A stretch of DNA of 64,000 nt from Mytilus galloprovincialis (lineage: Eukaryota; Mollusca; Bivalvia; Mytilida; Mytilidae): positions 93,777,795-93,841,794 of the forward strand of contig NC_134843.1 in NCBI RefSeq assembly GCF_965363235.1, in the 5' to 3' direction. The number at the start of each line of letters is the position of its first letter. The stretch's first letter is position 1. Below, in pieces: positions 8,501 to 54,274 of this stretch. Both the position numbers and the translations under genes were made by a program. The notes under the pieces are model-generated. The model saw only the letters and a list, made by a program, of their open reading frames with translations, ran no database searches and had not been told where the DNA came from.

Positions 8501-11500
8501 TTCACACCAACTAAATAATAAAAATAAGATGTTGTATGATTACTAATGAGACAACTCTACACAAGAGACCAAATGACACAGAAATTAACAGCTATCTGTC
8601 ACTGTATGGAGTCCATTAAACAGTATAACTTCCTCACCTCCATTTGTAAAGACTCAGCCAATCCTCTGAGAGCAAACTTTGATGCAGCATAGCCTGTATA
8701 ACCAAACAAGCCAAGCTGACCAGCTTGTGAAGAGATGAAAACAATCCTTCCACCTCCTTGTTCTTTCATTTTACTAATCACTGCTTTAGTAGTTTGTACA
8801 GAACCAAAATAATTCAGGTTCATTAATTTCTATAATATAAATTTCAATCTATGAATGTGTAAAAATATAAAAATAGGAGATTTGGTATGGTTGCAAAGGA
8901 GACTTTTGAATTTTTATTAAGGTAGTTTTTGAATTTTTAATGCTTATATCGTATTACATGATAATTTTTTGGATTTTAAAACTTTGGTTTTGACAGAAGC
9001 TGATGTTTTTTTTGGTTTCGAGAGAACACGATGATTTTTTTTTAGTTTTGAGAGTACCTTATGATGTGTCTGTTCTGAGAGAACATGGTGATGTGTTTTG
9101 GTTTCGAGAATACATGATGATGTGGTAAGTGTTTGAGAGGACCGGTACTAGTCCTGATGATGTATTTTGTGTTTGAGAATGTCTGATAATGTGTGTTCTG
9201 GTTTAAAGAGTATGTGATGATGTGTTTTGGTTTAAAGAGTATGTGATGATGTGTTTTGGTTTTGAGAGTATCTGTTAACCTGTTTTGTTTTAAAGGGTAC
9301 CAGATAATGTGTTTTGGTTTTGAAAGTACCTGGTGATATTTTTTGAAGAAAACATGTGAAGGCTGCACTGGAAACTGCAATGTTCAAATTTACTAAAATA
9401 TTTGTTAACAATCTGCAGTAATAATTGTTACTCAAATTCATATACAAATACTTATTCATTTAAATAAGAATGATGAAAAGATTTATATATTTTCATGTAA
9501 ACTTAAATCCGGCTTTTTTGCCGTATTTTAATGTTATTAGGGAAAACTTTGGGGAAAATAGTGTTCAATTTGTACGAAGAGTCTTTTCAAAATATGACAT
9601 GTGTCTTTGCCATTAGAATATACGCACGTGGGAATTTGAGAGGGTTTATATCCAAGTGAATTAATATTCATAAGTCTCCAGTTTCACACATTTACTGTTA
9701 GCAAAACATTTGTTTTAATCTTATTGTTTTACTTGCTTACCTTATTCAGAATCATTGAACCTTGGTTTACAATATGATTTCTTGTTTAACTAAGAATAGA
9801 AAAAACCTTGGTTTACAATATGATTTCTTGTTTAACTAAGAATAGAACAAACCTTGGTTTACAATATGATTTCTTGTTTAAATAAGAATAGAACAAACCT
9901 TGAATTCATCTATTTTTAGATCTTCAAATGTTTTAGCAACACCAATCCCTGCACAGTTAATTAACATATTTACAGGTCCTTGTTTGTCTTCTGCCTGTAA
10001 TTTATAAAACAGAACATTGGTTAATCACCTGTAGTCAGGTTTTTTTGTTTGTTTAATAACATCAAAACATAAAATATTACAAATTTATCTCAATTATATT
10101 ATAAGGAGGAGGAGGTTGATTAGGAATTTCCTTCCATTTATATATTTTGTAAAATTTAAATCTCATAAGCTGATGACAGAAAAAGTTCTAAATTTCAATC
10201 ATAACTACTGTAAATTCAGAAATTATTGGAATGTTTTTATTGTCGCGAAAATGAGACAAGATTATAATTGCAATAATTTAAACTCGCATTTTTGAAATCT
10301 TTTATATGAATAAAACAGGATTTTACTCAATATTGCAAAAATTAAAATCACATTTTCGTATAAAATTACCAAATCGCAAAAATAAATGCATGCAATAATT
10401 TCTAAATTTACAATAGTTCAATAATAAGGGTCAAAGTATCATCATTACATCTTGTCATTATCCTGGAAATGGGTTTCATATTCAGATGGAAAATAGGAAA
10501 TTTACTCATCAAAGAACAAAATATATAAACAACAAAGTTACAGGGGCATAAAAGAGCAGTGGAGCCTACTTTCGTGTTCAATAACTTAAGTGTACAACCA
10601 TTCACATCACCACAAATCATCACAATGGCATCAAATCATATTTTATTGAAGTTGTATTAACAATAAACAACATATTAAGCCAATTATCTCAAGAAGAAAA
10701 ACATAAAAAGTTTGCTTAACTTGTCTCTCAATCCTTTGGCATATTCCAGCAAATAAAACATGTGTAAACTAATGTTCAAACTATATTAATAGCAATTAGA
10801 ACCATTGACAGTGCAAAATCATATTTTCTCAAATCCCTGGTTAACATGTATGACATTGTCTTTCCGCCTAATAGGGTTAATAATATCACCAGTCTTTAAA
10901 CAGGGAGTATATATAAACTATTTATCTGGTACCTTTTGTACTGCCTTCTGTACTTCTTCATAATCTCCAGCCACATCAACAGAAACAATACATACTGGCT
11001 GTAATAGACAGGAAGTAAAATTTTTGTTATTCATTTAAATGTTTATACACAATATTGGCTTTAAAGGATTCTGTATCTTTTATATCTGGTAATTCCTATG
11101 TCTATATGTACATGTATGTACAATATAGCATAATTCTTTCTTCTAGAACTTACTTGATTAAACATCAGGAATCAAAATACACAAAACAGATAAAGCTCAG
11201 ACTAAATAAATAAAATAAGGAACACTTTGAAAAAAGAATCATAAAACTAAGTACTCGGCCTTATCATAAAGGGGCATGCAAATGTGTGCATGGGTTTTCA
11301 CTTATCTTTTAGGTAGAAATGTGTGTTATGATAAAATGAATACTACACATACATTAATGTAATGTGGAAAAACACAATATCTTTTTATTTTAAGTTATAC
11401 CCTCTACAAAAATAACATAGTATTTACCTTAAAATTATTCCCAGCAACTTTTTCCAAATCAACCTTTGCAGCTTCGAGTTTAGTCTGCAATTTAAATAAA

Positions 11501-15741: not shown

Positions 15742-15810
15742 TTTGATTTTTCCACTTTTTTGTTTCGGAAAATTCTGGCGGAAGTTTGTTGTTGACGTCT
15801 AAATTAGAAC
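15742..15810 (-). promoter_or_regulatory. Probable KDSR core promoter / 5' UTR
   Basis: Just upstream of the KDSR start codon are an ETS-like GCGGAAGT at 15778-15785 and a CRE-like TGACGTC at 15794-15799. There is no TATA box. Such motifs are common in housekeeping promoters. The transcription start is not determined. Confidence 0.35.
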
Positions 15811-16600
15811 CTAAGGTTGGAAACGAACGAGAACGTATTCCGTACATTAGATTAAGATAGATAGAGAATATGATGAGGCGTGGAATTCAGTCATTCCAAG
15901 GATTTGTATTTAGTAAGAATCTTACTATACAAATCATTGGTAATTCGTAACAAAAAATATTAAAACACATAAAAATAATAGTAAGAAATAGATTGTCCAT
16001 CTATTGTCACGGCTTGTGGGGAAAAATAAGAATCTATATATATATATGATTAAGATTGAAGGAATCCTTAAGTAATTCTCAAAAAGTTGATGGTATTCAC
16101 GGTTACTAAAGAAGAAAGCAAATTATTCAAAGTAGTGAAAAAAATAGTTATGATCGTAAATTTTTTTGTAATAAAAATTATGTGTGTACACTTTTACTAA
16201 AATATACCTTGTTAAGGTTTTAATTTTAGTGGTGTACATAGAAATGATAAATCCCAGACCATTAAATAGCAATCTATATTTTTATTAATCCTTTTATTTT
16301 TTCTGTCAATAAATAAATAAATAAATAAACTACGTCCTTTTACCTTTTACCAGTAAATCTATTTCACTCCTTTTTAATCTGTGCGTTTTAAGATATTTTG
16401 ACTAACATTATTATATGCTTAATGTACATAAAATAGTAGGTGTAAATATTTTTATGTTAGTTTTTTTTTTTACATTTATAAACGGTTTTAGGACAACAAT
16501 AATCTTTTAAGGATTGTATATAGTCTAATCTGGTCTGCTCCATGTTTTTAAACAGCAATAAATAAAAATAAGGGATTTTTTTTAAACCGTGTGACACGGG
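15811..16600. other. Intergenic spacer, no gene seen
   Basis: AT-rich sequence between the two head-to-head genes. An aaat microsatellite lies at about 16309-16328. No coding exon or repeat family is recognised. Confidence 0.4.
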
Positions 16601-16640
16601 TGCTCCGTTGCGGAGGAATTTACTTAGAGAAGAAGTTAAG

Positions 16641-16790: not shown

Positions 16791-16857
16791 AATGTTTATA
16801 TCATTAAAAAAGCTCCAAATTATCTCCCTTTGGTGCAAAAATGACATTTTTTGGCAT

Positions 16858-19260: not shown

Positions 19261-19261
<1 letters not shown>

Positions 19262-19317: not shown

Positions 19318-19320
<3 letters not shown>

Positions 19321-20820: not shown

Positions 20821-20829
20821 TATTACATA

Positions 20830-22367: not shown

Positions 22368-25300
22368 ATGTCTACTTTTTCCAAGTTTAGAAGAGCAGGA
22401 GCTTTTGATAGTATGTATTTGCTTGTTGTGACTTTTATGTTGTTACTTTAGCAGTGTTTTAAATTTCTGTTTGGCTTGAATTGTAACCCTGAAATGTTTG
22501 AATTCTGCCATTTTTTTATGTATTGCCTACGGTGTCCAAAAGAGATTCATGGATGCAAATGTTGGTGAGCAAAGAATCCTGAATTTCTGATATTTGAGAC
22601 AAAAAGGCATTCATAAACTTTTAAAGCTGACCATGCGGTATGGGCTTTACTCATTGTTGAAGGCCTTACGGTGACTTATAGGAAATTGTTAATTTCTGTG
22701 TCAGTTGGTCTCTTGTGGAGAATTGTCGCATTGGCAATCATACCAAATCTTTTTTTTTATATTGTCTGGAAATTTCTAGAGAAAAACACGCACATTTTTA
22801 ATATAAGGAGAAGGAGATTGTGTTTGTTGGGCCAGCTGAAGGACGCCTCCGGGTGCGGAAATTTCTCGCTACATTGAAGACCTGTTGGTGACCTTCTGCT
22901 GTTGTTTTTTTTCTATGATCGGGTTGTTGTCTCTTTGGCACATTCCCCATTTCCATTCTCAATTTTATTTTATTGTTGTCAAATAGACTATTCACCAATA
23001 TATTTAAAGAGCAATATTAGTACCGAAATAGGCAATGAATATTTAAAGATCATGCTAATGTTAAATTGATAACCTTCAAATAAGGATTTAGTTTATGCAA
23101 AGGACTTATATACTTACATTTGTCTTATCTTTATTTATGAGGTATACAAACAAAAACACCTTAAACATTAGTATTTGATAACCGGTTATTTGATTTCCGT
23201 TTGTTAAAAGATTTCTACAGAAACAGTCAAACTTCCAAAGTCAATCTGTTAACTAATGACAGTTTTAAAAGTAATTTATGATAACGCAATATCTCTATGC
23301 ACTGTACAAGTCATATAAGAACCAAAAATTTGCGAAAGCAAATTTACAGATCTAACATTGTTGGGTTGATTTTTAGACGAGTTGTATATACATTATGTAC
23401 ACAGCCATGTATCACCATCATTGATGGCGATCCGATGGATACATCTGTTGTAGAGTTGTCACTGACTCAGACGTACTTATAAATATAATTATTTTCTGTG
23501 ACTGTATATTACATTAATTTGTAGGATCCTTTACTATAGATAATTTAGCTGATCTGTAACAATAACATCTTCATGCCTTATATATCATGTACTGTAGTAC
23601 GCCGCTAGATTAAAACTGACGAGGAAAGGTAACACACGGCCAGCGAAAGCTCTTTTTTGAGAGCCCAGGTGGTTGTGTGGTCTAGCGGGACGGCTGCAGT
23701 GCAGGCGATTTGGTGTCACGATATCACAGTAGCATGGGTTCGAATCCCGGCGAGGGAAGAACCAAAAATTTGCGTAAGCAAATTTACAGATCTAACATTG
23801 TTGGGTTGATGTTTAGACGAGTTGTACTTATATATGGTCAAGAAGAACATAATTATATCTCCCAGCCAGTGTTTACGTATCCTATTATGATTTCCTTGAA
23901 AGAGGGTCGGGTCTTTGCTTACAAGGAAGATATTAAAACAAGGGTTCCACGTGGCAAAGTTAAAGTCACATCTTCGAAAATGTTACGGACGCCATCACGA
24001 TTAGGTTGATTGTTTTTAGGATTGGTTGATATATAGATGACGACGAATATGCTCTAAGTGTAACCACAATTCCATCATAGCTTTCACGAATGCGACACCA
24101 CAAGAATAATCGAATTATCCGTAGCATTAATAACAAGACAGGTGTCAAACGTGTAACAAGATCTACTTACAAGTGCGAATCACATGAAATCACTAAGTGT
24201 TTGATGCTGTTCGTGTTGTAGTCTTTTCTTTTCTATGTTGTGTTTTGTAGACGGTTGTTTAACCTTCCGTCGTTTTTTTGTCAAGACTTTAAATAAAATT
24301 GAGAATGGAAATGAGGAATGTGTCAAAGATACAACAACCCGACCAAAGAGCAGATAACAGCCGAAGGCCACCAATGGGTCTTCAATGCAGCGAGAAACTC
24401 CCGCACCTGGAGGTGTGCTTCAGCTGGTTCTTAAACAAAAATGTTTGTACTAGTCCAGTGATAATGGACGTCATACTAAACTCTGAAATATACGTTTGTC
24501 GTGAGTTTGGATATCCCTGAGATATCTTACGCCTCTCTTTTACAACATAAGCTATAGCATTACAGTTTCAGTAAGAATATAGAGCACATTTTCTTTGGCA
24601 TAAAAGACTAGTTATTGTATCGAGACGTGTAAATAATAATTTATTTTTTTTGCAGAATCTGAAGATGTACCGAGTCGACCTGTGAAACGGACCAACAGTA
24701 GCAGCTGGATGATTAACATTGTTAGAACAGTCAGATTCAAACATGATGCGCTGAAGGATCATGGGTATTGGTATCTCAGTAAGTCAATGTTATCAGAACA
24801 ATCAGATTCAAACATGATGCGCTGAAGGATCATGGGTATTGGTATCTCAGTAAGTCAATGTTATCAGAACAATCAGATTCAAACATGATGCTCTGAAGGA
24901 TCATGGGTATTGGTATCTCAGTAAGTCAATGTTATCAGAACAATCAGATTCAAACATGATGCGCTGAAGGATCATGGGTATTGGTATCTCAGTAAGTCAG
25001 TGTTATCAGAACAATCAGATTCAAACATGATGCGCTGAAGGATCATGGGTATTGGTATCTCAGTAAGTCAATGTTATCAGAACAATCAGATTCAAACATG
25101 ATGCGCTGAAGGATCATGGGTACTGGTATCTCAGTAAGTGAATGTTATCAGAACAATCAGATTCAAACATGATGCGCTGAAGGATCATGGGTATTGGTAT
25201 CTCAGTAAGTCAATGTTATCAGAACAATCAGATTCAAACATGATGCGCTAAAGGATCATGGGTATTGGTATCTCAGTAAGTCAATGTTGTTAGAACAATA

Positions 25301-28300
25301 AGATTCAATCATTATGCACATGAGTGGTGTCACCACGCATTAATTATCCAGAATGCCATGATCGGTTAACTGACAATAAATTTCCCTACATTTGGGAAAG
25401 ACGGAGAGTATTAGATCTGGTTGAAAACTTCGGTCTTTAAGATTGGGTCATTTTGTTATCTCCTGTTATGGTATTGAATCTAAAACTTTTGTAACTAAAA
25501 TATTAAGGAATAATATATGATCAGTTTCTGCCTTGTTATTTTATAGTCTTCTCCACAGTGAAAAAAATCAACCAAAGGCTGAAGTTTTTACATAGAAACA
25601 ACGATTGTCTAAATTTTCAATCTAAGAAAACATTTTGCCTTTCCCTGATTAAATGTCATTTTGACTTTGCATGTGAATGCTGGTATGTAGGGTTTATCAA
25701 AACAAATGAAGAATAAACTTCAATTGGCACATAACACATTGTGAGATTTATTCTGCAACTACATCAGAAAAAGTGACACATATTGAATTTGAGAATATTT
25801 TTTTAATATTAGTTACAACAGTCAAACAACTAAGACTCAAATATGTTTTCAACATTTTTAACAATATATGCCCAAATTATTTGCATTCTTCTTAGAAATT
25901 AAAAATCTTTCGATACAAGATCTTGTAGTAAAAACTTTTATATACCAAAAATTAAAGGGTGTAAATCTACCAGTTTCGTTTATAAATAAAATGAAAAAAA
26001 TATATTATAAAGACGTAAATAAATTGACAAATAAATAAATTCAAAAAGGTATTATCTTTCAGGTAACAAAATAATAATGTTTATAAATAAGTTATTTCGG
26101 GAACACATAACAATAATATTCGGGTTGCCATCGAACGCACCGATGACTACAACTCATTTTGATTTTATAAAATTTTCCAACATGAGTTCAGTGTTAGCCA
26201 CAACGATAGCAAACAACAGAAAAAGGATAAGAAATCAAGTTCTTAAACGTCGTAGCAGCTTTGTTAAAATTCGTAAAGTTGGCTTCATTAGTGATGTAAC
26301 TGTTGGAGAATTCCTGGACCATTTCATTTACACAAGTAAGTCAAACAAATGACGGGTTTTCTATAGGGGAATTCCTGGAACATTTCATTTACACAAGTAA
26401 GTCAAATAATTGACGGGTTTTCTATATGGGGATTCCTGGAGCATTTCATATACACAAGTAAGTCAAACAATTGACGGGTTTTCTATAGGGGAATTCCTGG
26501 AGCATTTCATTTACACAAGTAAGTCAAATAATTGACGGGTTTTCTATAGGGGGATTCCTGGAGCATTTCATATACACAAGTAAGTCAAACAATTGACGGG
26601 TTTTCTATAGGGGAATTTCTGGAGCATTTCATATACACAAGTAAGTCAAACAATTGACGGGTTTTCTATAGAGGAATTCCTGGAGCATTTCATTTACACA
26701 AGTAAGTCACACAATTGACGGGTTTCTATAGAGGAATTCCTGGAGCATTTCAATAACACAAGTAAGTCAAACAATTGACGGGTTTTCTATAGGGGAATTC
26801 CTGGAACATTTCATTTACATAAGTAAGTCAAACAATTGACGGGTTTTCTATAGGGGAATTCCTGGAACATTTCATTTACATAAGTAAGTCAAACAATTGA
26901 CGGGTTTTCTATAGGGGGATTCCTGGAACATTTCATTTACATAAGTAAGTCAAACAATTGACGGGTTTTCTATAGGGGGATTCCTGGATCATTTCATTTA
27001 CATAAGTAAGTCAAACAATTGACGGGTTTTCTATAGGGGAATTCCTAGGAACATTTTATTTACACAAGTAAGTCAAACAATTGACGGATTTTCTATAGGG
27101 GGATTCCTGGAACATTTCATTTACACAAGTAAGTCAAAAAATTGACGGGTTTTCTATAGGGGGATTCCTGGAGCATTTCATATACACAAGTAAGTCAAAC
27201 AATTGACGGGTTTTCTATAGGGGGATTCCTGGAGCATTTCATATAACAAGTAAGTCAAACAATTGACGGGTTTTCTATAGAGGAATTCCTGGAGCATTTC
27301 ATTTACACAAGTAAGTCACACAATTGACGGGTTTTCTATAGAGGAATTCCTGGAGCATTTCATTTACACAAGTAAGTCAAATAATTGACGGGTTTTCTAT
27401 AGGGGGATTCCTGGAGCATTTCATACACACAAGTAAGTCAAACAATTGACGGGTTTTCTATAGAGGAATTCCTGGAGCATTTCATTTACACAAGTAAGTC
27501 ACACAATTGACGGGTTTCTATAGAGGAATTCCTGGAGCATTTCAATAACACAAGTAAGTCAAACAATTGACGGGTTTTCTATAGGGGAATTCCTGGAACA
27601 TTTCATTTACATAAGTAAGTCAAACAATTGACGGGTGTTCTATAGGGGATTCCTGGAGCATTTCATTTGTACAAGTAATTCACACAATTGACGGGTTGTC
27701 TATAGGGGAATTCCTGGAACATTTTATTTACACAAGTAAGTCAAACATTTGACGAGTTTTATATAGGGGAATTCCGTGAGCATTTTATTTACACAAGTAA
27801 GTCAAACAATTGACAGGTTTTCTATAGGGGAATTCCTGGAGCATTTCATTTACACAAGTAAGTCAAACAAATAACGGGTTTTCTATAGGGGAATTCCTAG
27901 GAACATTTCATTTACACAAGTAAGTCAAACAGTTGACGGATTTTCTATAGGGGGATTCCTGGAACATTTCATTTACACAAGTAAGTAAAAAAATTGACGG
28001 GTTTTCTATAGGGGGATTCCTGGAGCATTTCATATACACAAGTAAGTCAAACAATTGACGGGTTTTCTATAGGGGAATTCCTGGAGCATTTCATATACAC
28101 AAGTAAGTCAAACAATTGACGGGTTTTCTATAGAGGAATTCCTGGAGCATTTCATTTTCACAAGTAAGTCACACAATTGACGGGTTGTCTATAGAGGAAT
28201 TCCTGGAGCATTTCAATAACACAAGTAAGTCAAACAATTGACGGGCTTTCTATAAGGGAATTCCGCGAGCATTTCATTTACATAAGTAAGTCAAACAATT

Positions 28301-31300
28301 GACGGGTTTTCTATAGGGGAATTCCTGGAGCATTTCATTTATACATGTAAGTCAAACAATTGACGGGTTTTCTATAGGGGAATACCTGGAACATTTCATT
28401 TATACAAGATAGTCAAACAATTGACGGGTTTTCTATAGGGGAATTCCTGGAGCATTTCATTTGTACAAGTAAGTCAAATAATTGACGGGTTTTCTATAGG
28501 GGGATTCCTGGAGCATTTCATATACACAAGTAAGTCAAACAATTGACGGGTTTTCTATAGGGGAATTTCTGGAGCATTTCATATACACAAGTAAGTCAAA
28601 CAATTGACGGGTTTTCTATAGAGGAATTCCTGGAGCATTTCATTTACACAAGTAAGTCACACAATTGACAGGTTTCTATAGAGGAATTCCTGGAGCATTT
28701 CAATAACACAAGTAAGTCAAACAATTGACGGGTTTTTTTATAGGGGAATTCCTGGAACATTTCATTTACATAAGTAAGTCAAACAATTGACGGGTTTTCT
28801 ATAGGGGAATTCCTGGAACATTTCATTTACATAAGTAAGTCAAACAATTGACGGGTTTTCTATAGGGGGATTCCTGGAACATTTCATTTTTACATAAGTA
28901 AGTCAAACAATTGACGGGTTTTCTATAGGGGGATTCCTGGATCATTTCATTTACATAAGTAAGTCAAACAATTGACGGGTTTCTATAGGGGAATTCCTAG
29001 GAACATTTTATTTACACAAGTAAGTCAAACAATTGACGGATTTTCTATAGGGGGATTCCTGGAACATTTCATTTACACAAGTAAGTCAAAAAATTGACGG
29101 GTTTTCTATAGGGGGATTCCTGGAGCATTTCATATACACAAGTAAGTCAAACAATTGACGGTTTTCTATAGGGGGATTCCTGGAGCATTCATATACACAA
29201 GTAAGTCAAACAATTGACGGGTTTTCTATAGAGGAATTCCTGGAGCATTTCATTTACACAAGTAAGTCACACAATTGACGGGTTTTCTATAGAGGAATTC
29301 CTGGAGCATTTCAATAACACAAGTAAGTCAAACAATTGACGGGTTTTCTATAGGGGAATTCCTGGAACATTTCATTTACATAAGTAAGTCAAACAATTGC
29401 CGGTGTTCTATAGGGGATTCCTGGAGCATTTCATTTGTACAAGTAATTCACACAATTGACGGGTTGTCTATAGGGGAATTCCTGAAACATTTTATTTACA
29501 CAAGTAAGTCAAACATTTGACGAGTTTTATATAGGGGAATTCCGTGAGCATTTTATTTACACAAGTTAGTCAAACAATTGACAGGTTTTCTATAGGGGAA
29601 TTCCTGGAGCATTTCATTTACACAAGTAAGTCAAACAAATAACGGGTTTTCTATAGGGGAATTCCTAGGAACATTTCATTTACACAAGTAAGTCAAACAA
29701 TTGACAGGTTTTCTATAGGGGAATTCCTGGAGCATTTCATTTACACAAGTAAGTCAAACAAATAACGGGTTTTCTATAGGGGAATTCCTGGAACATTTCA
29801 TTTACACAAGTAAGTAAAAAAATTGACGGGTTTTCTATAGGGGGATTCCTGGAGCATTTCATATACACAAGTAAGTCAAATAATTGACGGGTTTTCTATA
29901 GGGGAATTCCTGGAGCATTTCATATACACAAGTAAGTCAAACAATTGACGGGTTTTCTATAGAGGAATTCCTGGAGCATTTCATTTACACAAGTAAGTCA
30001 CACAATTGACGGGTTGTCTATAGAGTAATTCCTGGAGCATTTCAATAACACAAGTAAGTCAAACAATTGACGGGCTTTCTATAAGGGAATTCCGCGAGCA
30101 TTTCATTTACACAAGTAAGTCAAAGAATTGACGGGTTTTCTATAGGGGAATTCCTGGAGCATTTCATTTATACATGTAAGTCAAACAATTGACGGGTTTT
30201 CTATAGGGGAATACCTGGAACATTTCATTTACACAAGATAGTCAAACAATTGACGGGTTTTTTATAGGGGAATTCCTGGAGCATTTCATTTGTACAAGTA
30301 AGTCAAACAATTGACTGGTTGTCGAGCCTGCAACTTTTGTTGCAGAAAGCTCGACATAGGGATAGTGATCCGGCGGCGGCGGCGGCGGCGGCTACGGCGG
30401 CGGCGTTAGCTAACTTCTTAAAAGGTTTATATTTTAGAAGGTGAAAGACCTGGATGCTTCATACTTTGTATATAGATGCCTCATGTTACGAAGTTTCCGT
30501 CAGTCACATGTCCAATATCCTTGACCTCATTTTCATGGTTCAGTGACCACTTGAAAAAAAAGTTCAAAATTTTTGTAATGTTGAATTCTCTCTTATTATA
30601 AGTAATAGGATAACTATATTTGGTATGTGCATACCTTGCAAGGTCTTCATGCCCGTCAGACAGTTTTCACTTGACCTCGACCTCATTTCATGGATCAGTG
30701 AACAAGGTTAAGTTTTGGTGGTCAAGTCCATATCTCAGATACTATAAGTAATAGGGCTAGTATATTTGGTGTATGGAAGGACTGGAAGGTGTACATGTCC
30801 AACTGGCAGGTGTCATCTGACCTTGACCTCATTTTCATGGTTCAGTGGTTATAGTTAAGTTTTTGTGTTTTGGTCTGTTTTTCTCATACTTTATGCAATA
30901 GGTCTACTATATTTGTTGTATGGAATGGTTGTAAGGTGTACATGTCTAGCGGAGAGATGTCATCTGACCTTGACCTCATTTTCATAGTTCAGTGGTCAAA
31001 GTTAAGTTTTTAAGTTTTGGTCTTTTTATCTAATATTATATGCCAAAGGTCAACTATATTTGGTGTATGGAAATATATTATGATCTATATGTCAGTCCCG
31101 CAGGTTTTATTTGACCATGACCTCAATTGCACGGTTCATTGCACAGTGTTAAGTTTTTGTGTTTTGGTCTATTTTCTTAAACTATAAGTAATAGGTCAAC
31201 TATATCTGTTGTATGGAAGCTTTGTTAGATGAACATGTCTGCCTGGCATGGTTCATCTGACCTTGACCTCATTTTCATGGTTCATTGGTCTTTGTTTAGC

Positions 31301-40300: not shown

Positions 40301-43300
40301 AGGAATGCCATAGTGTCTCATCAACTGCCACAACACATCTCTATCTAAGCTGTCAAAGGCTTTGGCAAAGTCGACAAAAACAGAGTAGAGTGATGAATTG
40401 AACTCTTGTGATTGTTCGAGGATGATACGTAAGGTTGCTATTTGGTCTGCACATGATCGGTTTTGTCTAAATCCAGCTTGGTTGTCACGAAGCTTTTCAT
40501 CTATTGCATTTTTGAGTCGGTCTAACATAACTCTATTTAAAACTTTCCCTGGAACTGATAGTAGCATTATTCCTCTATAGTTGTCACAAATGCTTAAATT
40601 GCCCTTCTTTGGAAGCTTTACCATGTGTCCTTCTTTCCATTCTAGCGGGACCTCTTCTTCTTCCCAGATCTTTCCAAATAGCTCATATAGCATTTGAGTT
40701 GATGTTTCAATGTCTGCTTTCAGTGCTTCTGCAGGTATGTTGTCAGGACCTGGAGCTTTGTTGTTCTTTAGCATTTTTATGGCTTTCTTTATTTCTCCTG
40801 TTGATGGTCTTTTACAGTCTACTGCCAAAAGCTCTTCCGAGGGTAGGATGTCAGCTTTTCTTACAGGTGGGTCCTGGTTTAGCACATCCTTGAAATGCTT
40901 AACCCATCTTTTCATTTGCTCTTCATGTGTGTTGAGTGTTTTCCCTTCTTTGCTTTTGACTGGTCTACTTCCTTTCTGGTATTTCCCTGTTAGCAGTTTA
41001 ATGTTGTCATACAGAGCTTTGATGTTGTTTGCTCTGGCTGCTTCTTCTGCTTCTGCTGTCAGTTTGTCTACAAATGCCCTCTTATCTCTCCTTGCACTGT
41101 TCCTGACATCCTTGTTAGCTATAGTATACTCTCTTGAGGCTGAATGCTTTGCTGATCTTGTTTTGCTGTTGTTCATGATATTTTTTATATTTATCCTTTT
41201 TTCTACTTTTACAAGTGTTTCTGGCGTTATCCATTCCTGATGTTTCCTATTTTTTAAACCAACTGATGTTTCGCAAGCTGTCGTGAAAGCATTTTTAATC
41301 TCTTGCCAGTGCTCTTCTATTGAAATTATTTCCTCTGCTGCATTCTGAAATATTGAGAAGCGATTTTTTAGCTCTATCTGGAATTCTGATTTCTTTGTTT
41401 TGTTTTCCAACATTGATACGTTAAATCGTTTTCCTGTTGATTCAATATTTTGATGTTTCTTCAGCTTCAATTTGACATTAGCTACAATAAGGTGGTGGTC
41501 AGTGGCAGCGTCAGCTCCTCTTTTAACTCGGACATCTTGTAAACTTCTCCTAAACTTCTTGGAGATGCAGACATGATCTATTTGGTTTTCAGTGTTCATG
41601 TCTGGAGATACCCATGTTATGTTGCTAGATGACATTTTTTGTGTGGGAAAACTGTTCCACCGATGACCAGATTGTGATTTGGCAAAGGGCTCTCCATTCT
41701 CATTCATTTCTCCTAGCCCATGTCTTCCCATCACTTGTTCATAACCGGTGTTGTCGCTTCCTACCTTAGCATTTAGGTCTCCCATTAAGATTGTGATGTC
41801 TTTGGAGCTACATTTTCTGGTGGTTTCTTCCAGCAATTGATAGAATTCTTTCTTGATATTGTCCTCTGCACCATTTGTAGGGGCATAGCATTGGATGATG
41901 TTTAATGATATCCTTTTATTTGTGGTCTTGAATTTTGCCATGATGATTCTTGCACTTATTGGCTCCCATCCAATTAATGTTTTCTGAGCTTCTTTTGACA
42001 GCATAATGGCAACTCCTTCAGAATGTTGAGCGTTCTCCTCCATATGTCCAGAGTATATAATCATTTCTCCTGATGTTAGTTTTGATTGTCCTGCATCATT
42101 CCATCTTGCTTCCGCTATTCCTAGTATGCCTATTTCATATGCCTTCATTTCATTGGCGATGGTTTGCGCTTTTCCTGGAATGTACATAGATCTCACATTC
42201 CATGTTCCTATCTTTGTTGCGGATTTAGAGTTCAGAAGTCTCAGTTGTGTAGCTTCCTTTCGGTTTTGGCCATCCAACGTCATTCTCCTTCTATGTAAAG
42301 GTCTTCTTTCTCTTTCATCCAAGGTTTGTAAATTTTCGTTTCGTGTTTCTGTAATCCGATTTAACCTCTAAGCGGGGGATTAGCCTACCTAAAGGTTCCA
42401 GGTGGTTTTGTAAAGGCATCTGGAATGTAGCCTTCCCCATACGGGTCACTGGCCGGTGGGGCATTTTTTGCCCTCATACGCCCTTTGCCGTTGTCGCTTG
42501 GCAGCAATCTTCCGCCGGGGCAGTGATCTCCCAACTATTTGTCCAATAGCTGGAGTGGTTGTCTTGAAAGGACTAACGGTTACCACCAACCGGGATTTGA
42601 AATCAGAGTTTTCCTACTCCTAGACAGGCTGCCTTCCTAGGCTCACGAGACCCATCTTCCCGTCGCCCTTGTAGTTATGCCTGAGGCCTTTCGGTGCTCA
42701 GTATCCATCTGTTCCCACGGGGAGGTACTACATAGGACTTGATGTGGAGAGGCTATGTACTGGCAGGGTGAGACTGACAAACTGCTCACCTTTTCACATT
42801 TCTGTTAGCCAGCGGCGCTGAAAGCGAGAGGTGACAAGCACACAGACACAAAACACAGCACACTAGACGCATCACACAACATATAATTCATTATTTATCA
42901 GTAATTTGAAATGTTTTCTGGACAGTAATAACTGGTGGACCGTTGGACGATGATGAATACGAGTTAGCCGAGATCCGATTCCACTGGGGACGATGTAACA
43001 GAAGGGGATCCGAACATACAGTTAATGGAAAGGCTTTTCCTATGGAGGTCCGTATAATAATAGATTGCTTACATATTATAAATGTTCTCTGGGTGGTAAA
43101 GGGTTGTTTGCGTGCAACGTGTTTTGCCATTTTTATTTCATGTGCAGCCGTGAAAATAGTTCGTTATTCACCGTGTTTCGTGAAATCGGTAAAAAGATCA
43201 ACGTGCAGGAAATTTTAATTGTTCGTTCATCGTGAAATGGCAATTTTATTTCGCGTTCTTCAGTGCAGATACCTCCTTTTATGCCCATCTTTTCTAAAAA

Positions 43301-46300
43301 AAAAAAATACGACCGTAACTACAGTCCTTCCTCAAAATTTCTCTAATCTCATACAGTTAATGGAAAGGCTTTTCCTATGGAGGTCCGTATAATTACTTAC
43401 TGAATACAGATTATCAAGTGTTCTGTGAAAAGTATCATAATTATGCCTGTAATTGCAATCATTTGTAACATATTTTATTACGTAGTATATATCTTATTTC
43501 AATTAAGTACGTCATTTCTTGGAGCTATATAAACTATATTTTCCTGATATTTAAGAATTTAACGACCCTTTCTTCTTTTGAACAGGTGCAGTTTATACAC
43601 TGGAATTCAACACTATATCAAAATTTAGAGGAAGCTACCGGGAAAGAGAATGGAATTGCAGCGATCTGTTTGTTTGTGCAGGTTAGATCATGTTTAGATA
43701 GCATTTTTCTAATTATTTTGTCCTTATACAACAATGAACATTAGGATAATTATATCTTTAGTCTTTCTTGTATAGAATAACGTTATTTTCAATCTAGAAG
43801 TAGCAAGACTATCGTCATCTTAAAATATCATGTTTTCATTTCCTACAAGGTTTTATACTCGATTCATCTGGAAGAAAAACATGTTAACTTTACTTCTGAT
43901 CAACATTTCTATTTCCGATTAGATTTTAATGTTAATTGCGAAATAATTTGAGCGGAAAACATTTGATTTTTCTTTACGACAAGGAATTCAATTGCTTTTA
44001 AAATTACTAAAATAATAATTTCATGGCCTCTTTTTTCACTAGCATGTATTTACCTTTTTTTATTAATGATATTTTGTTTATTTTATGGGTTGTCCTAATG
44101 CAAAAATAGATAACAGTCATGCTTAAATATGCAAACAATGTTTTCTGTACAGATAGCATTTTAGAAATTGTAAAAATTTGGGTAGACATGTGTATGCATG
44201 TCAGCTTCTTATACTTATTAATTTGGCTAGTTACTCCCATTGAACTCTTTCAGATTGGACGGGAGAACCCAGCATTTAAAGCTCTAATTGCTGACTCCTT
44301 AGATGATATATTATACAAGGTAATACTTCTATCATGTTTAGATTAAACATTTGCATTGATGGTAAAAGTGGATCCCATTTCATCTAATGGCAGTGTATTC
44401 AAAAATGTATTTTCCCGAAAAATATCTTCAGTACTATCATTTATCCATTGTTGGGACTCGGTTCAATGATTTTCGATTAAAACTTATTCAACTGCAAGGT
44501 TAATTTAATTGTTTCCCTGCAGGCTTTTATTCATATGTTGAATTATAAATGAATATGAAATAAGGAGGTTTGGTATGATTTCCAAATGAAGCAGGTTTAT
44601 GCAATTTCAGTAGTGTAATTCGCTCTCAGACGATAAACATTTATATGTGTTCATCTTTTTACAAAACCTTGATTGCTGTTCATCTTGTTTTTGGAATATG
44701 GTTATTTTTGCTTCCTACCCTATCAGATATTTATCCAATTATAGGTATGATTTTAAAGAACTATGATAAAGTATGCTATTACACGAAATATATAAATTTA
44801 ATTCACATTTTCAGGGTAGACAAAAGACAACGTATGCGCCTTTCAATCCAGCCTCCTTATTACCAGGTAGATATTTCATATATATGTTATATATATCAGG
44901 CAAAATGTGTTGGTATATTCTCTTTTTTTTTTAATGTTTGATGTTTAAGAAATTCAGACTTATAGCTAGAGAATTACAGGATGACATTATAATTGGCTTT
45001 TTTCAACATTACCCTCGGGGTCTTGCAGTTAACAATCAGTGGTATTACTTAAGAACACCCTTATAATATTGCAGTCTACCAGTAGTGACATTGCTCCATG
45101 AATACTATTTGGGCCTGCAGACCACAAGCAGTGGTAGTGCTCTAGAAAAAACAATATGGTATTTCAGTGGTTTTTCTCTAAGGTATCCTTGTGACTTTGC
45201 AGTCCACACGCAGTGCCATTATTCCAGAATCATATTCATGTTGCAATCCACCAGTAGTGACTCCTTTCGGGTCTTGAGTCATCCACCAGTTAAATTTTTA
45301 ATTTCAAAAAATTTCAATCACAAACACGTATTGCGAGATTTCAATACTGACGAATTCAATTCTAAACCTCTGCATTGTACCTGTTGTGGTTCATTATTCA
45401 TATGCAATCCGACTGGCTACGTTATCACTTCTCTGCGAAATGTGTTATCCGTTAAAACTGAATGGGTCTATTTATACAAATGCTACATCAATCGGGACCA
45501 AAATCTTGAATCTATCCTATTTCCATAATAAATATGTTGTTGTCCCCGCAGATTAATCAACATTCTTTTTTTTTGTATATAAACACATACACATATTAAG
45601 AGGACTGCTTTATAAATGGGGTAGGTATTGTCAAACATGACTTGCAAACTCACCATTTATACTTCTGTGACACTTACCAAGAAGGAAATCCTGGGTAGTC
45701 GTAGGTCTTTTCTATGTTCCTTTAGAATTTCAACCAAAGATGAAAAACTGGATGTTCTTTCACTGTGTTGTATCCCTAAATTACATATGTATCCTTACAA
45801 ACAAGGTTATGTTGCTGGTTCTTCCAAAGGCTCCAAAAAATCTTTCTTAATTATCAGCATCAATTTGATCAGCAATCATAGCCAGGTTGTAAAGTTATTG
45901 TGAAACATTCTATTCTAGAGGTAGCGGGCATCAGATGTGGATACTGGAACTATCGGAAGATCTTTTAGGATAATCTAAGACTCTGTCATCTTGCAAAAGT
46001 ATAAAAATACGTGACTTTTCTACACTTTACACAAATATTCCACGTTCCAAGCTAAAAGACAAATTGGAATATTTGTTCTTGCTTTGTTAAATAAAAAATA
46101 ATGGTCAATCTTCCCTCTTCTTGCCGACTTGTTCGTTAATTCATGAGACTAATTTCATATAGGAGCTTCTTCAGAAGAAAGAAGGGAACTATTAAATTCA
46201 TTTTCCGCTATACAGATGCTTTCATCTCACTAAACAATCCAAAGCTTGGTGACACTGTTGAACGCATCTATCCCATCTAACTCGAGAAAAGTTTACATCG

Positions 46301-52300: not shown

Positions 52301-54274
52301 ACAAAGGATAATCATAAGATATACTTGAATTGTCCTTGACCACACTTCTGTGATGGGTAAATGTTAATGGAATCCTTCTCTGAATACGCGACAAACATAT
52401 TAGTAGTGGTAGACCCCAATGTCCAATGATCTTCAATTTATACCGAATATTGACTCAAAAAAAAAATGCTAACATTCCAATTTTCAATAACAGTTAACAG
52501 CAAATACATTATCACAATAACAGATAACAAAAAAAGTAATAGCCCAATAACAGCTAACAAAGAATAAGACAATAACAGCTAACAGCAAATATATTTTCAA
52601 AATAACAGATAACAAAAAATTAAATTTCCCCATAACAGCATAACAGTTAAACCCCTTGCCCCCCCATCTTAAAACTTCATTCATCAGTTACCTCTTTTGA
52701 AAAGTGTTCAGGTAGTAATTACGATAACCTTGATATTTTTTGTAGTTTCTGAGTTGCTACATGATTACTGGGTATATGATGGATCTCTTACACATCCACC
52801 GTGTAGTGAAAACGTTACATGGATCCTGTTACGTTATCCACTGTTATTATCACAGGAACAGGTAAGTGAGGTCACGTTATCTAATATCGTGTGACGTTAT
52901 CCACTGATATTATCACAGGAACAGGTAAGTGAAATCGTGTTATATAATATCACGTGACGTTATCCACTGAAATTATCACAGGAACAGTAAGTGAAATCGT
53001 GTTATCTAATATCACGTGACGTTATCCACTGACATTATCACAGGAACAGGTAAGTGTAATCATGTTATCTAATAGTGCTATCACGTGACGTTATCCACTT
53101 CTGGTATCGCAGGAACAGGTAAGTGTAGTCACGTAATTTTATAGTGATATCACGTGACGTTATCCACTTCTGGTATCACATGAACAGGTAAGTGAAGTCA
53201 CATAATTTAATAGTGATAGCACGTGACGTTATTTACTAAGTATTATCACAAGAACAGGTAAATGAAGCCACGTAATGAAATACTGCAATCACGTGAATCC
53301 ATTACTGCTTCACCTTGGGCAGATAACATTTCCTACCATTGATACGATTCCCGACACTAGTAAGAACTTTAATTCCTGTCACAACAGGAAAGGGTAAAAT
53401 TATATACTAGTACTGCTTATATCTTGATATAATAGTAGTAATGAATAAACGTTTGATTTTGTTACACAATTGCCTAATTGTTGAAATGGCATAGACACGT
53501 TTAGCTAAGAGTGTAAACATGGAAAACTGCTCTTGTGCATTGATTACCTCTTTTCGAAGGAATTTTAAATGACGATTAAGTGAAAACATTCCAATCGTTA
53601 TTCAAGTAAAAATCAGCGATTAATACTTAATTTCCAGAGGGGTGCTCTCAATTGAAATCAGGTTTATGTGAAGAAAGCAACAATGTTCTAACAAGAACCC
53701 GATTAGTCGAGCTTCTTTGTTTTGGTCTGTGGATTCATTTATTTTTCGTGGGTACGAATTTTCGTAGATTCAGTAAAACATGCATTTTCGGGGATGTTTT
53801 GATTTCGTGGTTTCGCCAAATTCTGTATGTAAGCTTATTGAAAAATTTAACTCGTTGAACATTTTAATTAGTGTTTCGAATGTATCCATTAAATCCACGA
53901 AATGTGGTATCCTACGAATTATTATGACGTCATAGTATTTGATACTCGGTTCTACCGAGCTACTCATTGGCATTCTAAATAATGATACATCAGTTTTTTT
54001 CTAACAAAAATATGTTCATGCTCTTCTGACCAGTGTTATGTCTCAACTGTTGTTTCTTAAACATAACCCTTTGACCAGTGTTATGTCTCAACTGTTGTTT
54101 CTTAAACATAACCCTTTGTTTTATTTGTTTTTCTTTCAGGCTATGGATTTTCGTCGACTTAATACATACAGTCAAGAAACTAAAGTGACAAATGCTTATG
54201 AAGGCAAACTTGTAGACAATTTTCGTCCCATACAACCCCTGAATGACAGGAAGATCAGAGCATCGTTTCAGTAG
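22368..54274 (+). CDS. CA8: Carbonic anhydrase-related protein, CA8 type (acatalytic), complete, 9 exons
   Basis: Coding exons: 22368-22410, 24656-24778, 33790-33984, 42926-43047, 43586-43681, 44254-44319, 44815-44866, 52746-52861, 54140-54274. All junctions are GT/AG and phases agree, giving 315 aa. The alpha-carbonic anhydrase fold runs from about residue 50 (DHGYWYL, then [10 protein letters not shown]) to the C-terminal [12 protein letters not shown]. The blocks [20 protein letters not shown] and [20 protein letters not shown] and the ending IRASFQ match vertebrate CA8 best. Compared with CA2, His64 is Gln110, His94 is Arg138, His119 is Gln163 and Thr199 is His249; only His96 (His140) remains, so zinc-dependent CO2 hydration is not expected. 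Vertebrate CA8 binds the IP3 receptor and lowers its IP3 affinity; a similar cytosolic role is inferred. There is no signal peptide. The first ~45 residues are basic and not recognisable. Confidence 0.93.
22620..22785 (-). repeat. Dispersed 'ggtatgattgccaa' repeat, reverse copy
   Basis: In CA8 intron 1. Reverse reading gives the family wording: aaatttggtatgattgccaa, then tctccacaagagacc, then aggccttcaacaatgagtaa. A 5' poly-A/T tract lies at about 22750. It is non-coding. Confidence 0.65.
22815..22975 (+). repeat. Second dispersed repeat family ('cagctgaaggacgcctccgg')
   Basis: 'ccagctgaaggacgcctccgg', 'ggaaatttctcgctacattg' and 'gtctctttggcacattcccc' recur at 24290-24450 (reverse) and 31545-31690. 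There are three copies in one gene, all short and non-coding. Confidence 0.65.
23317..23832 (+). repeat. 440-bp tRNA-headed repeat in tandem (one full unit plus a partial second)
   Basis: 'aagaaccaaaaatttgcg(a/t)aagc...' starts at 23317 and again at 23757. The second copy breaks off near 23832. The unit ends in a tRNA-like segment with intact polymerase III boxes (see 23661-23757). Head-to-tail organisation means each tRNA-like head is followed by a body and then the next head, as in a SINE dimer or a short tandem array. Confidence 0.7.
23661..23757 (+). other. tRNA-like SINE head with A and B boxes
   Basis: Box A TGGTCTAGCGG lies at 23678-23688 and box B GGTTCGAATCC at 23737-23747. The T loop is perfect, but the seven bases before box A (ggttgtg) do not pair with those after the T stem (gcgaggg), so it is not a functional tRNA gene. 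It could act as an internal polymerase III promoter. Confidence 0.65.
23870..24280 (+). mobile_element. 3'-end fossil of a retroelement with Penelope-like reverse transcriptase
   Basis: The segment is related by order and wording to the better-kept piece at 57880-58400: a 'tatttccttga..gagg' start, then an 'aaatgttacggacgccatca' block, then 'aacaagacaggtgtcaaacg' and a T-rich tail with 'ctatgttgtgttttgt'. It is the C-terminal edge of the reverse transcriptase plus downstream sequence, broken and old. Confidence 0.45.
24290..24450 (-). repeat. Reverse copy of the 'cagctgaaggacgcctccgg' repeat family
   Basis: 'attgagaatggaaatgagga', 'caacaacccgaccaaagagc' and 'gcgagaaactcccgcacctg' are the inverse of the 22815 copy. 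It is non-coding. Confidence 0.6.
24720..25320 (+). repeat. 71-bp minisatellite built from the end of CA8 exon 2 and its donor
   Basis: The last ~57 nt of exon 2 plus GTAAGTCAATG are repeated at a period of 71 bp. 'cagattcaaacatg' or a variant starts at 24732 (the exon itself), 24803, 24874, 24945, 25016, 25087, 25158 and 25229, with a diverged piece at about 25300. Copies are nearly identical, and each keeps TATCTCA|GTAAGT. Reading on past the first donor soon meets an in-frame TGA, so use of a downstream donor would truncate the protein. Confidence 0.95.
25540..26050 (+). mobile_element. Degraded LINE fragment (C-terminal part of a CR1/jockey-like reverse transcriptase)
   Basis: The plus-strand reading [20 protein letters not shown], then [14 protein letters not shown], then further on [12 protein letters not shown] and [15 protein letters not shown], matches the post-catalytic region of CR1/jockey-type LINEs ('LIQCHFDYACxxWY'). 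It contains stops and indels, so it is a pseudogene fragment. It lies directly upstream of exon 2b, and its tail may supply that exon's acceptor. Confidence 0.6.
26063..26335 (+). CDS. Candidate alternative CA8 exon 2b (symmetric, phase 1-1)
   Basis: A 273-nt open stretch lies between an acceptor TTATCTTTCAG (ends 26062) and a donor ACAA|GTAAGT. Its length is a multiple of three. Entered from exon 1 it stays open, and it leaves in phase 1, which joins exon 3 in frame (…HFIYT-KSSEW). Its end FLDHFIYT resembles the exon 2 end LKDHGYWYL in spacing and in the D-H-x-x-Y pattern. It could be a mutually exclusive partner of exon 2, or a first exon starting at ATG 26077 or 26182 ([20 protein letters not shown]). 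The sequence is basic and has no recognised domain. That it is spliced is inferred from signals only. Confidence 0.45.
26306..31510 (+). repeat. 61-bp minisatellite from the exon 2b donor, about 67 copies, interrupted by a 1.1-kb insertion
   Basis: The unit is ggggaattcctggagcattt, catttacacaagtaagtcaa, then acaattgacgggttttctata. About 65 units run from the end of exon 2b to 30318; the rest resume after the insertion (31411-31510). The exon-derived part is the last ~30 nt of exon 2b and the donor. Most units keep AAGTAAGTC and TTTTCTATAG. Variant blocks recur about 1,770-1,950 bp apart (for example the gaatttctgg variant at 26613 and 28563, and ttccgtgagc at 27772 and 29540), so the array also grew by duplicating blocks of about 29-32 units. 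Confidence 0.95.
30319..31410 (+). mobile_element. 1.1-kb hairpin-headed dispersed repeat inserted in the minisatellite
   Basis: It starts with a two-part hairpin: GTCGAGC, then CTGCAAC-TTTT-GTTGCAG, then AAA and GCTCGAC (30321-30355). Next comes a (CGG)n tract at 30371-30404, then about five imperfect ~150-bp repeats built around 'tgaccttgacctcattttcatggttcagtgg'. It ends 'gagacatttcagtgtgtgcactcttg'. A reverse copy lies at 58430-59558 and eroded pieces at 55418-55990 and 57030-57420. There is no coding capacity. Core repeats in tandem plus a microsatellite recall the 'pearl' elements of bivalves; that assignment is tentative. Confidence 0.75.
31545..31690 (+). repeat. Third copy of the 'cagctgaaggacgcctccgg' repeat family
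   Basis: 'ccagctgaagcacgactccgg', 'ggaattttctcgctttgtac' and 'ccctttgacacattcccaat' match the 22815 copy. It is non-coding. Confidence 0.6.
31691..33789 (+). other. Rest of the intron before CA8 exon 3, no further exon seen
   Basis: Mostly AT-rich. At 32235-32440 is a fragment of another bivalve dispersed repeat: 'aagttgattggacatcagct', then a degenerate ACGG/ACGA tract (32323-32400), then 'gccatcaagtggggcaaaac'. (ACGG)n-containing elements of this layout are known from bivalves. Confidence 0.5.
34045..34170 (+). repeat. Dispersed 'ggtatgattgccaa' repeat copy
   Basis: In CA8 intron 3: 'agaagatgtggcacgattgt', 'ccaaatgacaccgaaattaa', 'ataggtcaccgttcggcctt' and 'caaccatgaacaaatatgc'. This is the best-preserved forward copy of the family in the window. 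Confidence 0.65.
34778..36412. mobile_element. 1.6-kb CACTA (EnSpm)-type non-autonomous element
   Basis: The ends CACTACAAACC and GGTTTGTAGTG sit inside a longer inverted repeat of at least 80 bp, flanked by the 3-bp duplication TTA (34775-34777 and 36413-36415). Both ends carry many copies of 'actcgacc(t)agtctgaac' in direct and inverted order, including a tandem 20-bp run at about 34962-35045. A CACTA start, 3-bp target duplication and dense subterminal repeats are the hallmarks of the superfamily. The middle (35050-36080) is AT-rich with no transposase. It lies in CA8 intron 3. Confidence 0.85.
36416..39267. other. CA8 intron 3, repeat debris, no exon seen
   Basis: At about 37245-37460 a MITE-like segment rich in 'attcg' words (attcgaattag, attcgcattcgaaac) is set into an older sequence with 'atcccgcttac' on both sides (37223 and 37461). 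Near 38798-38935 is another 'aaggccttcaacaatgagca' repeat fragment. The remainder is AT-rich with no recognisable content. Confidence 0.45.
39280..42880 (-). mobile_element. Full-length LINE (non-LTR retrotransposon) with 12-bp target duplication
   Basis: A 3,601-bp antisense insertion in CA8 intron 3, flanked by perfect ATATAATTCATT copies (39268-39279 and 42881-42892). The 5' part (42880-42323) is a GC-richer leader without a clear ORF1. One long ORF follows, ending 10 nt before the 3' terminus, which reads AAGCAAGTAAGC instead of poly-A. Short-repeat 3' tails and a single endonuclease-RT ORF fit the RTE/BovB-like group; proteins of this kind are often labelled 'craniofacial development protein 2-like'. 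The perfect target duplication and open ORF indicate a young insertion. It lies 45 bp upstream of exon 4. Confidence 0.9.
39290..42322 (-). CDS. LINE ORF: AP-endonuclease plus reverse transcriptase
   Basis: The frame is 1,010 codons if counted from TTG at 42322. The first ATG is codon 14 (42283), giving 997 aa. An exonuclease-endonuclease-phosphatase domain occupies about residues 35-290: TWNVRSMY near 40, IAEARW near 70, GDLNAKVG near 181, TDHHLIVA near 275. The reverse transcriptase domain (about 530-830) has [38 protein letters not shown] and the catalytic FADD at 751-754. The C-terminus has the WIGHTLRKP...[14 protein letters not shown] signature of the family. Residues about 211-235 ([15 protein letters not shown]...) do not fit the family, while the next frame reads [18 protein letters not shown] there. 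That indicates two compensating indels, which may damage the endonuclease. Confidence 0.92.
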   Translation of the reverse strand: MDERERRPLHRRRMTLDGQNRKEATQLRLLNSKSATKIGTWNVRSMYIPGKAQTIANEMKAYEIGILGIAEARWNDAGQSKLTSGEMIIYSGHMEENAQHSEGVAIMLSKEAQKTLIGWEPISARIIMAKFKTTNKRISLNIIQCYAPTNGAEDNIKKEFYQLLEETTRKCSSKDITILMGDLNAKVGSDNTGYEQVMGRHGLGEMNENGEPFAKSQSGHRWNSFPTQKMSSSNITWVSPDMNTENQIDHVCISKKFRRSLQDVRVKRGADAATDHHLIVANVKLKLKKHQNIESTGKRFNVSMLENKTKKSEFQIELKNRFSIFQNAAEEIISIEEHWQEIKNAFTTACETSVGLKNRKHQEWITPETLVKVEKRINIKNIMNNSKTRSAKHSASREYTIANKDVRNSARRDKRAFVDKLTAEAEEAARANNIKALYDNIKLLTGKYQKGSRPVKSKEGKTLNTHEEQMKRWVKHFKDVLNQDPPVRKADILPSEELLAVDCKRPSTGEIKKAIKMLKNNKAPGPDNIPAEALKADIETSTQMLYELFGKIWEEEEVPLEWKEGHMVKLPKKGNLSICDNYRGIMLLSVPGKVLNRVMLDRLKNAIDEKLRDNQAGFRQNRSCADQIATLRIILEQSQEFNSSLYSVFVDFAKAFDSLDRDVLWQLMRHYGIPEKFITIIRNTYTGMQSKVIHEGQLTEAFDITTGVRQGCLLSPMLFLLAVDWIMKQATDGRRNCIQWTMFTQLDDLDFADDIALLSHNHQQMQDKLEQVEKRAAETGLSINQNKTKVLKSNTKSQASLMVNTQALEEVESFTYLGSVVDNLGGSDKDVKIRIGKARTAFNMMGSIWKARNITLKTKIRLFNSNVKTILLYGAETWKTTKNLLHKLQVFINNCLRRILNIRWPEKISNKDLWEKTNQSPVDEELKKRKWRWIGHTLRKPKTNITRQALQWNPQGKRSRGRPRYTWRRNVAAKMEKEGYKWHDLERLAKNRTRWRNIVSGLCSTKGQQD
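43350..43393 (+). repeat. Dispersed 44-bp copy of the CA8 exon 4 end and donor
   Basis: Identical to 43015-43058: the last 33 nt of exon 4, the donor GTCCGT and 5 nt of intron. It lies 335 bp downstream of the original, in intron 4. It looks like the remnant of a collapsed tandem duplication, or a recent non-tandem copy of a splice site. Confidence 0.95.
45290..46800 (+). mobile_element. Fossil of a retroelement with Penelope-like reverse transcriptase
   Basis: Recognisable pieces in order on the plus strand are an N-terminal cysteine/histidine stretch ([13 protein letters not shown]), a segment reading [40 protein letters not shown], a [11 protein letters not shown] block and the family's 3' sequence with 'caacacgacgggtgccaacc'. 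It is broken in several places and long inactive. It interrupts the 47-bp satellite. Confidence 0.55.
47290..47615. mobile_element. Foldback segment inserted in the 47-bp satellite
   Basis: 'ccactacggaccacagagggt' (47510-47530) and 'aaccctctatggatccgtag' (47583-47602) are imperfect inverse copies around a small GC-rich palindrome (cggcctccggcc). A related 'tatggatctgaaggggtt' lies at 47332-47349. No ORF. It is probably a MITE of unknown family. Confidence 0.4.
47991..49689 (+). other. CA8 intron 7, no exon seen
   Basis: AT-rich intronic sequence with no recognised coding signal. The 93-codon minus-strand frame at 48851-49132 has unlike composition to any known family and is treated as chance. 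Confidence 0.4.
49690..50050 (-). mobile_element. 3'-end fossil of the same retroelement family, antisense
   Basis: Minus-strand reading gives [12 protein letters not shown], matching the 57880 copy ([12 protein letters not shown]), followed by the family's 'agcaggatctgcttaccctt' and T-rich tail equivalents. It is a short, broken piece. Confidence 0.55.
50743..52672. mobile_element. Possible 1.9-kb element with G-tract ends and 'aacagataacar' subterminal repeats
   Basis: Left end gggggggcaagggggtc (about 50750-50771) and right end gttaaaccccttgccccccc (52652-52670) are inverse-like. Beside each end, 'caataacagataacaa' or 'aataacagctaacag' is repeated (50773-50850; 52486-52650). The interior (about 51010-51660) holds four ~160-bp units containing 'tttatatctattgac..agctccc' and 'attttagattttacgtt', a dispersed bivalve repeat. 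Whether the two ends belong to one insertion is uncertain. Confidence 0.4.
52829..53290 (+). repeat. 63-70-bp minisatellite built from the end of CA8 exon 8 and its donor
   Basis: The last ~33 nt of exon 8 (cgttatccactg...cacaggaacag) plus GTAAGTG are repeated about seven times. The donor words fall at 52862 (the true one), 52925, 52987, 53050, 53119, 53187 and 53258, with divergence rising towards the 3' end. Running past the true donor meets an in-frame TGA, so only the first donor yields CA8. Confidence 0.93.
53724..53995. repeat. Dispersed 'gtggattcatttattttcgt' repeat
   Basis: 'ctgtggattcatttattttt', 'gggtacgaattttcgtagat', 'atttcgtggtttcgccaaat' and the inverse-like 'aaatccacgaaatgtggtat' suggest a palindromic MITE-type repeat. 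Further pieces lie at 60-190 and 19908-19970. Confidence 0.5.
54028..54117. repeat. 45-bp perfect tandem duplication just before CA8 exon 9
   Basis: Two identical copies of gaccagtgttatgtctcaac and following bases (54028-54072 and 54073-54117) end 22 bp upstream of the exon 9 acceptor (54139). Confidence 0.95.

Follow-up and report, generated by a model that had tools for sequence, protein, structure and literature searches.

In the genome of Mytilus galloprovincialis (1.385 Gb in 331 contigs), a 64,000-nucleotide stretch of the 103-Mb contig C6, referred to here as the window, carries minisatellites that lie directly on the 5' splice sites of protein-coding exons. The question that this locus raises is whether splice donors give birth to such arrays, as the original prediction held, or whether arrays arise in many places and are tolerated at splice junctions. 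We approached it by examining the junctions of the window, an independent sample of exons from the same genome and the genome-wide distribution of donor-like words, and by weighing the explanations that these data allow.

Arrays at splice junctions in the window

Two genes occupy the window, one on each strand. Exons 3-9 of the plus-strand gene are firmly assigned to CA8 by homology, as their top PDB match is 2w2j, a carbonic anhydrase-related protein (E 5e-89), and they also match Pfam PF00194. The minus-strand gene encodes a short-chain dehydrogenase (Pfam adh_short, E 3e-51); the NCBIfam KdsR model reaches 114 bits on it, under the cut-off of 400 and ranked behind other models, and the name KDSR used below is only plausible. 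Neither Pfam nor NCBIfam gave a match to CA8 exons 2 and 2b, which are predicted from three features only: an acceptor, an open frame and a matching phase. The exons concerned and the repeats at their donors are collected in Table 1.

Table 1 Exons of the window with repeated sequence at the donor, and the corresponding repeats (window positions; TRF, unit length x copy number)
Feature	Position	Strand	Description
CA8 exon 2	24656..24778	+	phase 1-1; no family match; donor CTCA^GTAAGT
CA8 exon 2b	26063..26335	+	~90-codon open frame; phase 1-1; no family match; donor ACAA^GTAAGT
CA8 exon 4	42926..43047	+	donor GGAG^GTCCGT
CA8 exon 8	52746..52861	+	conserved carbonic-anhydrase coding sequence; donor ACAG^GTAAGT
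KDSR exon 5	9899..9994	-	donor TCAAG^GTTTGT
Exon 2 donor array	24724..25317	+	TRF: 71-bp unit x 8.4; 55 exon + 16 intron nt
Exon 2b donor array	26308..30320	+	TRF: 61-bp unit x 65.8; 28 exon + 33 intron nt
Exon 2b array, final copies	31410..31509	+	severed from the main array by an inserted element
Exon 8 donor array	52831..53273	+	TRF: ~69 bp (units 63-70) x 6.7; first period 63; 39 exon + 24 intron nt
Exon 4 second copy	43350..43393	+	exact 44 bp, original at 43015-43058; 33 exon + 11 intron nt
KDSR exon 5 array	9758..9902	-	TRF: 46-bp unit x 3.2; begins at the donor

The original prediction had named five exon ends with duplicated donors. This stands for the CA8 exons, as the donors of exons 2, 2b and 8 lie inside their own arrays and the end of exon 4 recurs once, in an exact copy, some 290 bp downstream, but KDSR exon 5 adjoins its array only: the unit contains just 4 exon nucleotides, and it therefore abuts the donor without spanning it. 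The unit sizes and copy numbers given beforehand were reproduced by TRF, and TRF together with reading of the sequence confirmed that the additional copies at CA8 exons 2, 2b and 8 extend solely into the following intron. The repeats are minisatellites in the usual sense of head-to-tail units of about 10-100 bp, the units of 12 donor cases measuring 26-118 bp. A dispersed satellite or a transposon-borne unit would be expected in many unrelated places; the exon 2b unit, the one unit searched for in this way, gave 68 matches in the genome, all of them at C6:93804102-93809303, and was therefore born there. The element within the exon 2b array (30321-31409) has a related stretch with similar translated open reading frames on the minus strand near 59350-59570.

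Duplication of a junction was scored by a common rule, which requires, for the 24-mer centred on the junction, a copy 20-200 bp away that agrees at 21 or more positions. By this rule three of the eight CA8 donors are duplicated and none of the seven KDSR donors tested exactly, the array at KDSR exon 5 failing the test; at the donors of KDSR exons 2 and 8 no duplicated position lies nearby. The total for the window is 3/17 donors, and no acceptor passed in either CA8 (0/9) or KDSR (0/8, exon 7 being left out). Since the rule is satisfied at 9.4% of window positions, three of 17 donors correspond to P 0.21 on base coverage, an estimate that is circular because the donor arrays of the window themselves supply much of the 9.4%.

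Further repeats were noted in the window. A perfect 45-bp x 2 repeat (54027-54118) ends about 20 nt upstream of the CA8 exon 9 acceptor, inside a KDSR intron a 31-bp x 15 array (7338-7802) approaches the exon 8 acceptor to about 50 nt, and 484-2215 was recognised by eye as a tandem pair of near-identical copies of about 865 bp, a period beyond the tandem-repeat finder. A CA8 intron contains on the minus strand (39290-42367) a 1025-aa open frame, which we take to resemble a LINE-type endonuclease-reverse transcriptase.

Splice junctions in an independent exon sample

Exons chosen independently of the finding were obtained by searching the same genome for six protein families, which gave 93 matches for myosin head, 120 for carbonic anhydrase, 99 for SNF transporters, 125 for kinesin, 49 for TCP1 and 13 for aldehyde dehydrogenase. 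The first set comprised the best-scoring 30 myosin and 30 carbonic anhydrase matches with the 13 aldehyde dehydrogenase matches (73 exons, about 3.2 kb each). The second consisted of 40 of 64 drawn rows (24 SNF transporter, 16 kinesin; every fourth row, counted by eye), with kinesin row 22 omitted and also two rows that are copies within the L078 array, and the third of 16 additional table rows within the loci, picked by eye. The fourth set held 57 exons called at a score of at least 12 by a small exon finder trained on sample exons, which made 102 raw sense calls against five in the antisense control, 68 of them unique and 57 without table rows; at a score of 10, two extra calls inside the L065 array, excluded by the threshold of 12, appear among the donor and acceptor hits. 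Splice sites in the sample were placed automatically and part of them inspected.

Six of the 186 sample donors lie in local tandem duplications (3.2%, CI 1.2-6.9), in myosin, carbonic anhydrase, aldehyde dehydrogenase and transporter genes: L020, L051, L065 and L069 of the first 73, L081 of the 40, none of the 16 and L030 of the 57. The L051 unit was called at 114 bp and is 52 bp according to TRF. At L030, the exon belongs to a myosin heavy chain (best E 1.4e-19), and after it a 60-bp unit, 53 bp of it exonic, is repeated about 14 times. Two donor arrays were met outside the sample, at L079 (118 bp x 2.8, through the kinesin table) and at L121 (through the word search described below), where a 59-bp donor unit is present six times at a GPSM2-like exon (E 4e-29). 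The phenomenon thus recurs beyond the window, and in unrelated conserved genes of the same genome near-identical copies of a splice site stand beside the working site.

Acceptors are affected as well, so that the restriction to donors in the original prediction was mistaken. Among the sample acceptors 2/187 are duplicated (1.1%), L115 and L098; the latter had been flagged automatically as a donor, a call rejected when reading identified the acceptor of the next exon. Outside the sample, an acceptor array of 133 bp x 6 was found at L078 through repeated kinesin matches. L078 fits the sampling rule (kinesin row 22) and was nevertheless omitted, and L039, whose 39 bp x 17 array ends at an acceptor, does not pass the 24-mer test and was likewise excluded; with both added the acceptors become 4/188. 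The acceptor arrays at L078 and L115 are the mirror image of the donor arrays, their extra copies extending toward the preceding intron. At L078:317-1114, five copies of the acceptor with about 110 nt of exon lie upstream, near-identical sites that splicing must bypass.

A comparison of donors with acceptors, exon interiors and intron had been proposed as the check on a donor preference, and on this genome sample, within which it was run, the donor and acceptor fractions above stand beside 0.32% of exon interior positions passing the 24-mer test and 3.65% of positions in the flanking intron (more than 250 bp from the exon). About 35 ordinary arrays occur in about 203 kb of sample flanks, which indicates that arrays are common everywhere, and duplication is rare inside exons. 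The donor count varies with the setting: with 20 of 24 matches required, 4/73 donors and one acceptor (L069) pass, and with 22 of 24 matches at 30-75 bp a single donor of the 73 (L065) passes against a background of 2.6%.

Chance, donor preference and order of events

Donor-like words were counted in the whole genome. The consensus-donor word CAGGTAAGT formed 322 pairs at a spacing of 40-70 bp in 10,610 occurrences and its reverse TGAATGGAC 134 pairs among 10,824, and the near-miss CAGGVAAGT gave 291 among 17,519 and its reverse 511 among 20,590. Per occurrence the reversed near-miss (2.5%) comes close to the donor word (3.0%), and the two-fold difference between the two reversed words implies that a few long arrays dominate the numbers of pairs. 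When the forward words were counted as distinct loci, merged by eye on C1-C4 among the matches listed, 28 donor-word loci stood against 16 for the one-letter near-misses (one of which, C3:62015466, shares its array with a donor-word locus), about 2.9-fold per occurrence with genome-wide occurrences as denominators (CI 1.5-5.7). Genic and intergenic compartments may differ in their content of arrays and transposons, and because of this confounding we treat the word test as a pointer only. GC content on the two sides of the junction hardly differs in the 28 listed donor-word units (0.34 vs 0.36), so that some of them need not be genuine exon ends; of three donor-word loci fetched (L120-L122), L121 is the one clear exon end. 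An array with a period of 78 bp at C1:7066749-7069966 contains at least 30 perfect CAGGTAAGT words on the minus strand.

If arrays cover about 4% of introns, some will coincide with donors by pure chance, and on base coverage the sample looks so, since 3.65% predicts 6.8 of 186 duplicated donors where six were observed (P 0.68). A donor is one original site, however, and could be contained only in the unit from which an array was born and not in the expanded array; in the 12 donor arrays that were examined, less than one unit lies within the exon. We consider this form of coincidence improbable, and because an array is born from one unit and its expanded copies are not original sites, per-unit nulls were added. 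A hand-made null, which is rough and was constructed after the donor count had been seen, places 0.64-1.05% of the original sequence in birth units and predicts 1.2-2.0 duplicated donors, so that the six observed exceed expectation three to five times (P 0.0014-0.014); the acceptor count agrees with it. This null was built from the unit lengths of 36 arrays (at least about 1.4 copies), with known junction arrays excluded and L030 later removed, and with 200 bases added for about 20 short dispersed pairs. Coding selection fixes one copy of a junction pair, so that such pairs would diverge about half as fast and their visible number could double; with visibility twice as long, P under the hand-made null becomes 0.03-0.20. 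An automatic per-unit null (2.4-3.3%; P 0.20-0.42 for 5/130 donors) was put aside, being judged to overcount because it read the distance between the members of dispersed pairs as a unit length and retained fragments of the L020, L051 and L065 donor arrays.

An excess of this size would suit a hotspot of array birth, in which transcription or splicing, through R-loops, U1-bound RNA or breaks at the exon-intron border, starts duplications at 5' splice sites; donor-centred duplication would then proceed at several times the background, and several percent of donors would now stand amid near-identical decoys. The hand-made per-unit count, the 2.9-fold word ratio and the three duplicated donors among the eight of CA8 point in this direction, as does the exonic fraction of the unit (mean 0.66 in 12 donor arrays), although this skew has p 0.06 and the 24-mer test misses exon-poor units. 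Against a hotspot stand the involvement of acceptors, from which the donors of the sample differ with a Fisher probability of 0.17 (0.036 for 9/203 vs 2/204 when the window, itself selected because it shows the effect, is included), the higher P values under two-fold detectability or the automatic null, the single donor under the strict setting and the compartment confounding of the word test. We found no link between array births and transcription or splicing, to which the original prediction had tentatively attributed them, and its statement that donors are favoured beyond random birth draws suggestive support from the hand-made and word tests but not from base coverage, the automatic null or the donor-acceptor comparison. 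A donor-linked hotspot is accordingly a doubtful, tentative reading.

The order of events could also have been the reverse, older intron minisatellites having given donors to new exons. The copied ends of CA8 exon 8, of the L030 myosin exon and of the GPSM2-like exon at L121 are conserved coding sequence, which places the exon before the array in these genes; for exons 2 and 2b, lacking a family match, either direction is possible, and as a general account an array-first origin is very improbable. Still less credence is due to a selected function of the repeated donors as decoys or splicing regulators. Within the 66 copies of the exon 2b array, which have a mean identity of 95% to their consensus, AAGTAAG is kept in 59, and mean conservation is 0.982 in the six GTAAGT columns and 0.945 elsewhere in the unit, but this difference is small and comes from one homogeneous array, and some of the exon 8 decoys have lost the consensus.

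Proposed tolerance of junction duplications, and relation to known systems

We propose, with a probability of roughly 0.6, that the genome is prone to duplication and that duplications straddling a splice junction survive since their copies fall in the intron while the outermost site works. Short segments (mean about 55 bp) would often be copied head to tail, giving local births of minisatellites that presumably expand afterwards by slippage or unequal exchange. A duplication within a coding exon would harm the protein and be lost, and one that straddles a junction would place all new copies on the intron side, the gene staying functional provided that splicing uses the outermost of the original sites (the first among donors, the last among acceptors). 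With copies confined to the intron side and the outermost site usable, arrays would survive at donors and acceptors alike, and the exon copy, fixed by coding selection, would keep junction arrays recognisable for longer. Unit length is a multiple of three in 4/12 donor cases, and this lack of bias fits removal of the extra copies as intron.

If a few percent of donors have up to dozens of near-copies downstream, they constitute natural experiments on how the spliceosome chooses among equal 5' splice sites, and, at such a frequency, on how duplications that touch exons evade selection. A donor hotspot, if true, would tie DNA duplication to splicing or R-loops. New introns and alternative exons, too, can take their start from tandem duplication across a junction.

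Among the titles and abstract openings of the open-licence literature, and within the reach of the search words used, donor arrays recurring across a genome were not found. The closest published case found is the potato RdRp gene (PMC4974935), in which a new intron arose from one tandem duplication that spans an intron-exon boundary at an acceptor. As in the mussel, the duplication copied splice signals of a protein-coding gene along with part of an exon; unlike that single acceptor event, the mussel arrays are multi-copy, involve donors and acceptors and recur in one genome. Hellsten et al. 2011, as cited in PMC4974935 and PMC8469720, described tandem duplication that provides GT and AG sites; tandem-duplicated GT/AG is common to both systems, whereas the segment is exonic in theirs and straddles an existing junction in the mussel. 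The CeRep25B minisatellites of C. elegans (PMC4039745) are intronic, lie near alternative exons and form a family common to several genes, with regulatory motifs. They resemble the mussel arrays in adjoining splice decisions, but the latter arose locally, by copying of the splice site itself. With ordinary minisatellites and VNTRs the mussel arrays share unit length, copy number and local expansion, and they differ from them in that the unit contains a splice junction together with coding exon sequence of up to about 100 nt.
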